Origin: Bacillota bacterium
GTDB lineage: Bacteria > Bacillota > Limnochordia > Darwinibacteriales > Darwinibacteriaceae
Direction of reading: 5' to 3'
Assembly (NCBI GenBank): GCA_012521465.1
Contig: JAAYMI010000189.1
Location: 1 to 36,995 of the forward strand
Length of the DNA: 36,995 nt
In this document: one piece after another, positions 1,610 to 5,156 of the stretch
Layout of the letters: every line of letters begins with the position of its first letter
Position numbering within the stretch: position 1 is the first letter of the stretch
Notes under the pieces: model-generated
What the model saw: only the letters and a program-made list of their open reading frames with translations
The model's database searches: none
What the model was told of the DNA's origin: nothing
Translations under genes and position numbers: made by a program

Positions 1610-2647
1610 ATGGTCCAGGAATTAGTGCAGGCGGCCTTTCTTATTTTTGTGGCCGAGATGGGGGACAAGACGCAGCTGTTGGCCATGGCCTTCGCTCTGC
1701 AGTTCAGCATTATCCAGGTCCTTGGTGGAGTGGCACTGGGCTCTTTTTTAAACCATGGTTTGGCCGTCGCTCTGGGTGCGTATGTATCACAGTTAGTACC
1801 CTTGGAATTAATCCGGCTCATTGCCGCCTGCGGTTTCTTGGGTTTTGGCTTGTGGACCCTGTACAACCGCCAAGAAGAGGAACACTTGCACACCCCTGGT
1901 CAGGGGCATCCTATCCTCGTGGTGGCTCTGGCATTTTTCATCGGTGAACTAGGCGATAAGACGCAGCTCAGCGCGATCGCCCTATCAAGTAGGGCCTTGT
2001 ATCCTGAAGCCGTCTTGGCGGGAACTGTGCTGGGCATGGTGCTCACCAGTTTGGTTGGCATAGGCGCCGGCATTAAGCTAGGGGAGAAGGTGCCTGAAAG
2101 AACCCTCAGGTTGATCTCGGCCTTTGTCTTTATCGGCTTTGGCGTTCTTGGTCTATGGCGTGCCGTTCCGCCGCATCTTCTTACGGCCCCTAATATTGCC
2201 GTATTCTTGGGGGCGCTGGCTGCGGCTATCATCTTGCTGATTGTACCGCCGCTTTGGAGAACGCGGCGCACCGAGGTTCAGGGTAAGTACACTCAGATGC
2301 AGCGGGTGGCTCGGGAACTGAAACGGCATTTGGCAGAGATTGAGGCTGCTGTAGATGATATCTGCTTGAGCGAAAAGCACTGCGGCGTGTGCCGAGGAAA
2401 AGACTGTCCAGTAGGCTACTGCCGCGATCTCGTAAGACAAGCACTCCGCGACCACCTCGCGGCAGAACCCCACGGCGTGATTCCCCGAGCCAGAACGGCG
2501 CAGCGCTTTGATGAGGCGAAGATCCGTCACGCTTTAGCCCTAGTTCGCCAAGAATACCCCGATTGCGAGAGTATGCCGGAAATCGAGACGATTATCAGGC
2601 GCACCGAAGCTGTTCTGCGGACCCTTGAAAGCCACCAGACTTCATAG
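1610..2647 (+). CDS. GDT1/TMEM165 (UPF0016) family cation transporter with Cys-rich C-terminal extension
   Basis: This is a membrane protein of the UPF0016/GDT1 family, whose studied members move Mn2+ or Ca2+. The family's two copies of the E-x-G-D-K-T-Q motif are at residues 16-22 (EMGDKTQ) and 113-119 (ELGDKTQ), each opening a three-helix repeat; six to seven hydrophobic segments extend to about residue 215. I chose ATG 1610 because the SD AGGTGGG lies ten bases upstream; an in-frame GTG at 1595 overlaps that SD. At 345 residues the protein exceeds the usual 190-240. The extra ~125 residues form a charged helix followed by a five-Cys cluster (C252, C258, C261, C266, C271) and more helix, probably cytosolic. 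I did not find a yybP-ykoY-type Mn2+ riboswitch upstream. The end overlaps murB, tail to tail, by 6 bp. Confidence 0.85.
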   Translation: MVQELVQAAFLIFVAEMGDKTQLLAMAFALQFSIIQVLGGVALGSFLNHGLAVALGAYVSQLVPLELIRLIAACGFLGFGLWTLYNRQEEEHLHTPGQGHPILVVALAFFIGELGDKTQLSAIALSSRALYPEAVLAGTVLGMVLTSLVGIGAGIKLGEKVPERTLRLISAFVFIGFGVLGLWRAVPPHLLTAPNIAVFLGALAAAIILLIVPPLWRTRRTEVQGKYTQMQRVARELKRHLAEIEAAVDDICLSEKHCGVCRGKDCPVGYCRDLVRQALRDHLAAEPHGVIPRARTAQRFDEAKIRHALALVRQEYPDCESMPEIETIIRRTEAVLRTLESHQTS

Positions 2648-3502
2648 CGATCCGAGGATACGGATCTCTGGTTCTAGGTCTACGTTGAACCGCTGTTTTA
2701 TTTCTCTTTGAATGTGCTGAATCAGCTGGAGGACATCGTCAGCCGTAGCGCCACCGCGGTTTATGATGAAGCCCGCGTGTTTGGTGGAAACCTCCGCCCC
2801 GCCGATACGAAACCCCTTCAGGCCCGCTTGTTCGATCATGGGTCCTACATAGTGGCCCGCCGGTCGCTTAAAGGTGCTCCCGGCACTGGGGAATTCTAAC
2901 GGCTGTCTGGCCCTCCTCCTCGCCTGGAGATCGTTCATTTTGGCCAGGATCTCTTCTCTGCTGCCCGGGCGCAGTTCCAGCTCCACTCTGGTGACTACGA
3001 TCTTTTCTTGCTGAACGCGGCTGTGGCGGTACGAGTAAGAGAACTCATCACGGGTCCATGAACCAGGACCAGCCGCAGTGGCAAAATGCACGCGGCGGAC
3101 GAGGGGGCCGATTTCCCCATCGTAGGCACCGGCATTCATAAAGACTGCGCCGCCGATACCTCCAGGTATGCCAACGGCGAACTCCAGCCCCGTGAGCCGA
3201 TGATAGGCAGCCAGTTTGCTGACGGCGCTGAAGAGGCAGCCAGCCGAAGCGGTAATAGTGGTCCCATCCACCTGAACGTGGGCGAAGTTGTCGGCCATCT
3301 GAATTACCAGGCCGCGGATCCCTGCACTTCTCACCAGGACATTTGTGCCGTAGCCCAGGACAATTACGTTGAGATCGTGCTGTTCAGCAAACTGGAGAGC
3401 GGATATGAGTTCGGCTTCAGTTGCCGGGCGGGCAAAGTAATCGGCCGGCCCACCCACGCCAAGCGAGGTTGCCTTGGCTAAAGGATAATTGCGGATAAAC
3501 AC
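2642..3502 (-). CDS. murB: UDP-N-acetylenolpyruvoylglucosamine reductase MurB
   Basis: MurB is an FAD enzyme of the cytoplasm that uses NADPH to reduce UDP-GlcNAc-enolpyruvate to UDP-MurNAc, the second committed step of peptidoglycan synthesis. The FAD-binding half is clear: GVGGPADYF (15-23), LGYGTNVLV (49-57) and GIPGGIGGAVFMNAGA (111-126). Catalytic residues are visible as Arg159 in YSYRHSR, Ser209 in AGSTFKRP and a C-terminal Glu in LEPEIR. The start is GTG at 3502 with a near-perfect SD (AGGAGGTGG) just upstream. At 286 residues it fits the shorter type II MurB seen in Gram-positives. It lies downstream of the M23 gene on the same strand but is separated from it by a terminator. Confidence 0.97.
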   Translation of the reverse strand: MFIRNYPLAKATSLGVGGPADYFARPATEAELISALQFAEQHDLNVIVLGYGTNVLVRSAGIRGLVIQMADNFAHVQVDGTTITASAGCLFSAVSKLAAYHRLTGLEFAVGIPGGIGGAVFMNAGAYDGEIGPLVRRVHFATAAGPGSWTRDEFSYSYRHSRVQQEKIVVTRVELELRPGSREEILAKMNDLQARRRARQPLEFPSAGSTFKRPAGHYVGPMIEQAGLKGFRIGGAEVSTKHAGFIINRGGATADDVLQLIQHIQREIKQRFNVDLEPEIRILGSL

Positions 3503-3533: not shown

Positions 3534-3560
3534 ACACAAAAAGGGCGAGACTCCGCCCTT
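3534..3560 (-). terminator. Intrinsic terminator of the M23 lipoprotein gene
   Basis: On the minus strand a perfect 7-bp stem (3554-3560 with 3541-3547) closes a six-base loop and is followed by a run of T. The stem begins inside the TAA stop of the M23 gene. It separates this gene from murB downstream. Confidence 0.85.
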
Positions 3561-4188
3561 ATTGTTTTGTGTGATAGCGATTTTGCCAGATGAATTCACT
3601 CGGGTTCAACCAGTATTGCGCCACTCGCTCTTTCTCCCAGGCTGTACCGTTTGTGCGGGGCCAGGCGTTGGCAGGCAGATCTGCACTGCGGATCTCAAAA
3701 TGGAGGTGTGCGGCAAAGCGGTTATTGGGGCCGCGGCCCACAGTTCCGATCTGCTGGCGGCGCTGGACGAGTTCCCCGGTCCGGACATCTCGCCTGTCCA
3801 GGTGTGCATATTGGGACCACACATAGGTATCGTCAGGCAGCCGGTGTTTCACTAGGATGACATTCCCCAGTGCTGTGTTCCATCCCGAGAATACAACCTC
3901 GCCGTGAGCGATCGCGTAAACCGGCTCTCCCAGATCGCCATTGCCGGCTAGGGGAATGTTCCAGTCTTCTCCGGGGTGCCACGAATTGCTGACGCTGCTC
4001 CACTCTAGGAAGCCATAGCCAGTGATGTCCCATCCCTGCCCGTCCGGGCCGCCCACTGGGAAGTCGAACCCGTCCACGATAGGGAACAGACTGCCTTTCC
4101 CACCCGGTCCACTGCTTTCCATGGGACCGCAGCCGCTAAGGAGCAGCACGATCACAAGCCCCAACGCTGCTTGAACAGTCTTCTTCAG
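3559..4188 (-). CDS. M23-family peptidase, secreted lipoprotein, probable CTG start
   Basis: This is a LytM/M23-type zinc peptidase domain likely to cut peptidoglycan cross-bridges at the outer face of the membrane. Metal ligands are seen as HPGED (His71, Asp75) and HLHFEI (His161, His163), with YAHL at 127-130. Starting at CTG 4188 gives 209 residues beginning MKKTVQAALG with an ideal lipoprotein signal ending LLLSGC (Cys20 lipidated). The SD GGAGGAG precedes this CTG at normal spacing. The in-frame ATG at 4272 lies upstream of the promoter at 4225-4253, so it should not be transcribed. No ATG, GTG or TTG fits better: the only nearby TTG would leave too short a signal. The gene is divergent from the secreted unknown at 4344. 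The family is certain; the start codon is inferred. Confidence 0.88.
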   Translation of the reverse strand: MKKTVQAALGLVIVLLLSGCGPMESSGPGGKGSLFPIVDGFDFPVGGPDGQGWDITGYGFLEWSSVSNSWHPGEDWNIPLAGNGDLGEPVYAIAHGEVVFSGWNTALGNVILVKHRLPDDTYVWSQYAHLDRRDVRTGELVQRRQQIGTVGRGPNNRFAAHLHFEIRSADLPANAWPRTNGTAWEKERVAQYWLNPSEFIWQNRYHTKQ

Positions 4189-4224
4189 ATTACATCTCCT
4201 CCAAAGTTGACTAATTTCAGTAAT

Positions 4225-4253
4225 ATTGTACTGGGCAGGGAGGAAATGTTCAA
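4225..4253 (-). promoter_or_regulatory. Sigma-A type promoter for the M23 lipoprotein gene
   Basis: Read on the minus strand, TTGAAC (4253-4248), a 17-base spacer and TACAAT (4230-4225) give a good promoter. Transcription would begin near 4218, about 30 bases before the CTG start and downstream of the ATG at 4272. Confidence 0.65.
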
Positions 4254-4343
4254 TAATGGTAAAGTTCCCCAACGCGTTCTTACTGCTGCTTGGAGGAAGA
4301 GCTGCGCTGGCGGCGAATTACCAGGTTATTGGAGGGATAGGTT

Positions 4344-5156
4344 ATGGACCGCAGAATTATACTCGTTAGCTTAGTGGTGGTCATCCTAACCTGCACGGCT
4401 CCCCTTTGTGGAGCTTTTTACGGGGATGAAGTGGTCCTAGGTGGTGGAAACGAGTTTCGCTATGCCCTTGAGCTGGAGCCGGGTGAAAAATACAGCGTGG
4501 GAATTGCCGTGCAGAGCGACGAGCCCAATGCGCTGGTTAGTCTGTCTGTGCAGTTCCTCGGTGCCAGAGGTGACGTTGTGGAGTTTATCTCCACTGAGCG
4601 CGGCCTAGGTGCGGCTGGGCGCTGGACCCTATTGGGACTGGAGTTTACTGTTCCGCTAGATGAACTCCGCGCCGAACTGGTTCTGGCGGCAGACACCCCA
4701 GGTTTATACCGGTGGGACAGCCTGACAGTACAGCGGATTCAGAGTACTGCCCATGCGGTGCAGCAGTACTGGGAAGAGCGCTTTGCCAAGCACGGTCCCA
4801 TTTACACAGGCCTAGTTGTAGATGCCCGCCACCTGGATGTCCGCCGAGGGATCAGTCCCCGGGTATATTCAGAATCGGGTCAGCTCATCTATGGAGGGGT
4901 ACTGGCCTCGTCCGAGTATGTCCAGGGGGTAGGTGTGGTCGCCTACGGGAGCGAATTGGACCCAGAGCTGATTAAGCGCATTCAAGTGGACCCAGAATAC
5001 GGCTACGCGCTGCCGCTGACGGTGAAAGCTATTGGTACGATTGAGCCCGCCCGGACAGCGGTGTATATCAGTGATGCAGATGCGGAGCGCATCCTGCAGG
5101 CCCTATCACAATATGATTTTCTCGCTCGCTACGCGGTTATCTTTCTCATCGATTAA
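4344..5156 (+). CDS. Secreted two-domain protein: jelly-roll-like N-terminus plus LPP20/FlgT-like C-terminal domain
   Basis: I cannot assign a function. ATG 4344 follows the SD GGAGGG. Residues 1-24 are a signal peptide (basic start, hydrophobic core, likely cut after CGA). Residues ~30-132 look like a beta-sandwich of the CBM4/9/22 carbohydrate-binding type: alternating beta strands, a GRWTLLGLEFTVP-type strand, and a closing GLYRWDSLTVQRI strand. Residues ~152-270 (YTGLVVDARHLDV, SPRVYSESGQLIYGG, ending YAVIFLID) resemble the C-terminal domain I remember from LPP20-type lipoproteins and FlgT-like envelope proteins. The protein is extracellular or wall-associated. It lies opposite an M23 peptidase and upstream of a PfkB kinase with 65 bases between. 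The domain assignments are from memory and moderate in confidence. Confidence 0.7.
   Translation: MDRRIILVSLVVVILTCTAPLCGAFYGDEVVLGGGNEFRYALELEPGEKYSVGIAVQSDEPNALVSLSVQFLGARGDVVEFISTERGLGAAGRWTLLGLEFTVPLDELRAELVLAADTPGLYRWDSLTVQRIQSTAHAVQQYWEERFAKHGPIYTGLVVDARHLDVRRGISPRVYSESGQLIYGGVLASSEYVQGVGVVAYGSELDPELIKRIQVDPEYGYALPLTVKAIGTIEPARTAVYISDADAERILQALSQYDFLARYAVIFLID

Follow-up and report, generated by a model that had tools for sequence, protein, structure and literature searches.

The window analysed here is the whole stretch of 36,995 nucleotides from a Bacillota bacterium. On its minus strand it carries a gene for a 209-residue protein that matches the peptidase M23 profile PF01551 (E 8.4e-21; 74.4 bits against a curated cut-off of 28.7), and its best match in the PDB is TagE (5j1l; E 1.6e-11). 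The N-terminus in the window, MKKTVQAALGLVIVLLLSGC, has the features of a bacterial lipoprotein: a charged n-region, a hydrophobic stretch, and a lipobox with its cysteine. A preliminary description of this DNA had noted the minus-strand frame open over 3559-4272 and, in the form of the protein that starts at CTG, a lipobox LSGC at residues 17-20; the sequence bears out both observations. Downstream, beyond a terminator-like hairpin, lies murB (2642-3502, minus strand), and upstream lie a divergent gene (4344-5156, plus strand) and then a ketohexokinase-like gene. The divergent product has 270 residues and an N-terminal signal-like stretch, without a Pfam match; in a search of 46 loci, a relative of it turned up in 30, and one of murB in the same number; some of these loci are apparently one genome counted twice. 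The features of the locus are collected in Table 1.

Table 1. Features of the M23 lipoprotein locus (window coordinates)
Feature	Position	Strand	Basis
M23 lipoprotein coding sequence, 209 aa, stop included	3559..4188	-	PF01551 and orthologues
Peptidase_M23 domain, residues 85-172	3673..3936	-	Pfam match
Predicted lipoprotein signal peptide MKKTVQAALGLVIVLLLSG, residues 1-19	4132..4188	-	Lipobox cysteine register in orthologues
Lipobox cysteine codon, residue 20 (LSGC)	4129..4131	-	Sequence and orthologues
Terminator-like hairpin overlapping the stop codon	3541..3560	-	Scan
Probable CTG start codon	4186..4188	-	CTG at the same register in G000, G001, and G005; strongest Shine-Dalgarno pairing there
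Shine-Dalgarno sequence GGAGGAG, 7 bases before CTG	4196..4202	-	Sequence; duplex energy -9.3 kcal/mol
-10 box TACAAT	4225..4230	-	Scan; TANAAT in 20/20 family orthologues
Conserved CCATTA extension and -35 hexamer TTGAAC	4248..4259	-	CCATT[AC][TG]TG in 20/20 family orthologues
Long-frame TTG, probably unused (lies upstream of the promoter)	4270..4272	-	16 bases to the -35 hexamer; Shine-Dalgarno energy -1.1 kcal/mol

Orthologues of the M23 gene were sought in 72 genomes of the class at a threshold of E 1e-40 or better, and were found in 34 of them as 35 copies (genome G038 has two); of the 22 genomes from the family to which the window belongs, 20 carry the gene. The HxxxD and HxH motifs, which are the zinc/metal ligands of M23 peptidases, and a Y[AS]H motif are all present in 34 of 34 copies, HxxxD and HLHFE having also served as a filter when the copies were first read. 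A start was assigned to 34 copies; one of the two in G038 (G038a), in which neither the lipobox nor the start is clear, was left out. These starts are TTG in 16 copies, ATG in 11, GTG in one, CTG in three (G000, which is the window's own genome, G001, and G005), and, tentatively, ATC in three. Among the 20 copies of the family, the corresponding numbers are TTG 14, CTG 3, ATG 2 (G007 and G003), and GTG 1. The lipobox cysteine falls at residues 18-23 in all 34 copies, a narrow register that is partly a matter of choice, because the starts were picked by hand from the Shine-Dalgarno (SD) sequence, the register, and the codon. SD energies computed later for 15 of the 34 copies, including those with CTG and ATC, were strongest at the chosen codon in each, with a tie with the next codon in G024; at the canonical starts of nine orthologues they range from -10.7 to -12.2 kcal/mol. 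Lipobox-like residues precede the cysteine in 34 of 34 copies under a permissive pattern, and a stricter pattern missed three of the 35 copies: G016 (HTGC), G018 (STGC), and G038a.

The promoter that the preliminary description had proposed (-35 TTGAAC, a 17-base spacer, and -10 TACAAT at 4253-4225) is present as described and is conserved in the family: CCATT[AC][TG]TG, a spacer of 17 bases throughout, and TANAAT are found in all 20 family orthologues. From the end of the -10 box to the start there are 27-36 bases in these orthologues, and exactly 36 in each of the three CTG species. Outside the family, the string CCATT[AC][TG]TG is present in six of 13 further copies and absent from seven, and the -10 boxes of those six fit the consensus at three or four of six positions. 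We scanned the window together with 20 stretches each of G000 and G001 (1,234,668 strand-bases in all; L074, which holds G001's own site, was not among them) for CCATT[AC][TG]TG, 19-21 bases, and TA[ACT]AAT, and obtained one match, the window's own site; the string was derived from these same orthologues, and the scan is thus a measure of rarity and not an independent test. Transcription from this promoter, if it begins 6-7 bases after the -10 box, would give a 5' leader of about 30 bases. Single-sequence folds of the leaders of the three CTG species, judged by eye, revealed no shared hairpin. In five species of one genus (L067, L068, L069, L071, and L072), a palindrome-like stretch (roughly CTAACT, A plus two variable bases, TTAG) can be seen by eye after the -10 region, a few tens of bases upstream of the M23 start, and it looks like an operator.

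The M23 lipoprotein gene very probably starts at CTG 4188, as had been suggested from the position of GGAGGAG at 4202-4196, seven bases before the CTG at 4188-4186. In the three CTG species the SD duplex energy at this codon is -9.3, -10.2, and -12.1 kcal/mol, and every other in-frame ATG, GTG, TTG, CTG, ATT, ATC, or ATA codon in the N-terminal stretch scanned reaches -6.2 kcal/mol or weaker. In other words, G000, G001, and G005 each have a CTG at a proper distance from an SD sequence and lack a usable canonical start. The preliminary description had also proposed an alignment with close relatives, and this comparison supports initiation at CTG 4188: ATG, GTG, TTG, or CTG is found at the equivalent position in relatives, and CTG itself in two other species. 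In G001, an in-frame TAG at codon -5 excludes the long frame, and no ATG, GTG, or TTG lies between this TAG and the CTG; its first canonical codons are two GTGs (+7 and +8) on the border of the hydrophobic stretch. Ribosomes would be positioned by GGAGGAG, the initiator tRNA would act at CTG 4188, and the first residue would be methionine (fMet at CTG). The precursor, MKKTVQAALGLVIVLLLSGC..., would then be lipidated at Cys20, and a predicted M23 zinc endopeptidase would be held at the cell surface.

Three other modes of initiation have to be weighed against CTG 4188. The long frame, which begins with TTG at 4272 and not with the ATG originally reported there, is open in the window and would add a 28-residue N-terminal extension, in which G000 and G005 share a few residues (FTIIE/VTIIE). 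However, these residues coincide with the conserved promoter DNA, the TTG lies upstream of the -35 box and has almost no SD pairing, and the G001 frame is closed five codons before the CTG; we give this start next to no chance. Translation might instead begin at an internal TTG or GTG (residue 9, 12, or 14), the CTG being untranslated or irrelevant. Downstream of the CTG, canonical codons first appear at these positions, and a gene caller that accepts only ATG, GTG, and TTG would be forced to an internal codon in G001. Against this reading, the SD energies at these codons of G000 are between -0.4 and -4.7 kcal/mol, the resulting protein would lack the lysines and have its N-terminus within the hydrophobic stretch, and the canonical starts of the orthologues sit at the CTG register, all of which makes an internal start very improbable. 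No more weight can be given to initiation at the ATG directly after the SD sequence, followed by termination (ATG-TAA) and a ribosome restart at the CTG one base later. The ATG-TAA is indeed present in the window, in another frame, as previously noted, but the ATG is zero bases from GGAGGAG, too close for an SD sequence, and it is absent from both G001 and G005, which have the CTG. The further suggestion that this ATG is a lost ancestral start is not supported, since it occurs in only one of the three CTG species (G001 has ATC at this place, and G005 has no ATG).

The midpoint-rooted RpoB tree (30 rows, among them 19 of the 22 family genomes) places the three CTG species, which span two genera, in one clade, G005 + (G000, G001), with support 100/99. 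Within its sister group, the first lineage to diverge is G007 and the second G003, both with ATG, and the TTG and GTG species follow; elsewhere in the order, the rows with the gene comprise seven that use ATG and one that uses TTG. Four start-codon changes suffice by parsimony over the rows counted. Since ATG is the start in both of the first-diverging lineages of that sister group, the likeliest history is that an ATG turned into CTG once, at this same codon, before the window's genus and its sister genus separated, and that the CTG has been kept since then. The three proteins are identical at 155/208, 147/207, and 147/206 positions, and only 9 of 62 four-fold degenerate sites are identical in all three species, and thus, on this comparison, the CTG codon, which is identical throughout, has outlived the near-saturation of silent sites. 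Being retained in two genera, the CTG has the look of a stable trait rather than a sequencing error, and the G001 and G005 sequences that carry it look like separate deposited assemblies. Taken as a whole, an account in which the promoter at 4253-4225, the SD sequence, initiation at CTG 4188, a lipidated M23 product, and a single ATG-to-CTG origin belong together is, in our judgment, highly probable.

We also asked whether unusual starts are common in this lineage, and on a small sample they do not look so. SD-supported CTG, ATT, ATC, and ATA codons were sought among the gene calls of G000 (168) and G001 (332), with a scan that is blunt by one codon and left the M23 gene itself unflagged. CTG was the codon with the best SD in 2/210 and 5/323 occurrences, respectively, rates similar to those of CTC (2/242) and CTT (2/213) in G001. 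Of 25 cases in which CTG or an ATH codon (ATT, ATC, or ATA) had the best SD, there are 17 in which a canonical codon comes within 1 kcal/mol, usually a neighbour sharing one SD sequence; the other eight include one ATT (in L110) and one ATC (in L128). Among 35 reciprocal-best gene pairs of G000 and G001, the best aligned SD-supported codon is canonical in 33, and the two exceptions are weak (ATC/ATC, -6.6 kcal/mol; CTG/CTG, -5.4 kcal/mol, in a frame that overlaps other genes antisense). The M23 pair is outside these 35, apparently removed by the overlap filter, and was judged separately. In the L110 gene call (G000:C1), the SD energy at ATT is -15.6 kcal/mol, against -3.0 kcal/mol for the best canonical codon, and it is possible that this gene starts at ATT, giving IKIGLTLPVSYL.... 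In infC of G000 (L079), IF3 appears by eye to start at ATT after GGAGGGGTGA / GGAGGGGTGACACC; ATT is the usual kind of infC start. A changed initiator tRNA was considered and rejected: the initiator anticodon stem-loop, with its three G-C pairs, has a single exact match in G000, which sits in a tRNA-Met gene, and this normal stem gives no sign of relaxed start selection in G000.

It should be mentioned that a further unusual start may exist in one genus of another family. In G036, G041, and G045 (start regions L064, L063, and L065, respectively), ATC is the only strongly SD-supported codon at the register, with energies of -9.8, -9.8, and -12.0 kcal/mol. G036 has no ATG, GTG, or TTG from the upstream stop to codon +31; G041 has a GTG at codon +4 and G045 one at -5. 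A small ATG frame with a strong hairpin runs into the ATC start in G036 and G041 (34 codons, the TAG lying 10 bases past the A of the ATC), and in G045 it stays open over the stretch read; its own SD pairing is poor in all three (-4.3, 1.2, and 0.6 kcal/mol, in the order G036, G041, G045). From these signals, initiation at ATC seems an even call, and translational coupling or another non-canonical start may operate instead.

What the CTG does for the cell is a separate question. In E. coli, the output from CTG is given as 0.86% of that from ATG, and that from TTG as 29.8% (PMC11497404), so CTG should lower the yield here. A translational throttle is a plausible role for the codon: a weak start would keep the amount of a cell-wall hydrolase low. 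Whether such a low dose is the benefit of the CTG, or whether the codon is simply tolerated, we put at about even odds. The tolerance explanation, in which the CTG is used but is a slightly harmful change in a weakly expressed gene, without a regulatory role, comes only a little short of an even chance. It is consistent with the single evolutionary event behind the CTG in the three species, with an SD sequence at the CTG that is not stronger than at canonical starts (no sign of compensation), and with the ATG relatives (two of the 20 family orthologues), which show that the protein can do without a weak start. Moreover, neutral drift at the first position of the codon would leave all three species identical with a chance of about 0.15 (9/62), so that retention of the CTG alone is no proof of selection. 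Against mere tolerance, CTG to TTG is one transition, and it was made in none of the three lineages although TTG is far better in E. coli, by the values given in PMC11497404; furthermore, ATG is avoided by 18 of the 20 family orthologues, though few events lie behind this number. A broader proposal, that the lineage of this lipoprotein repeatedly evolves and keeps weak starts as a brake (CTG in one clade, TTG in another, and possibly ATC in a third family), strikes us as rather unlikely. It is also relevant that, as described for the IncFIB plasmid, the replicon still works when the CTG is replaced by ATG or TTG (PMC11983097); a CTG start may thus be dispensable even where it is proven.

With respect to its product, the gene resembles LytM/M23 endopeptidases such as TagE (5j1l) and S. 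aureus LytM (2b44) in its M23 domain and its HxxxD and HxH motifs; the protein described here differs from both in its N-terminal lipobox, its short linker, and its length of 209 residues. Among the literature matches listed, no title concerns a CTG start in an M23 or lipoprotein gene, and two Corynebacterium transcriptome papers mention CTG starts. CTG accounts for approximately 0.024% of annotated bacterial starts by the count in PMC11497404, and Listeria core genes with rare or flexible starts are put at <0.3% in PMC13068326. In staphylococci, non-canonical starts are described for infC (AUA), ccpN (AUA), and cvfC1 (AUU), with reporter expression from AUA/AUU starts about 10% of that from AUG and in one case up to 30% (PMC13009471). 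As here, a rare start is combined with an SD sequence, and it is conserved among species in ccpN and cvfC1; the staphylococcal genes, as presented there, have AUA or AUU with extended SD sequences, whereas the gene in the window has CTG with an ordinary one. A close parallel is the Rep protein of IncFIB, whose natural CTG start, with a good SD sequence, is reported to be proven by N-terminal analysis and a CTG-to-CTC mutation (PMC11983097). According to the same source, most records misannotate Rep, placing its start at a GTG 14 codons downstream (PMC11983097). Gene callers limited to ATG, GTG, and TTG would in much the same way truncate the lipoprotein, which would lose its signal peptide. 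The two differ in that Rep belongs to an E. coli plasmid replication gene, whereas the present case is a chromosomal cell-wall lipoprotein of the Bacillota, known from its sequence only. Accepting it as a conserved chromosomal example of an already known kind, the natural CTG start, is well supported by the comparisons described above. Because CTG is both rare and weak in E. coli, as documented in PMC11497404, a chromosomal switch from ATG to CTG that has outlived the split of two genera would offer a rare natural test of whether selection favours weak starts.
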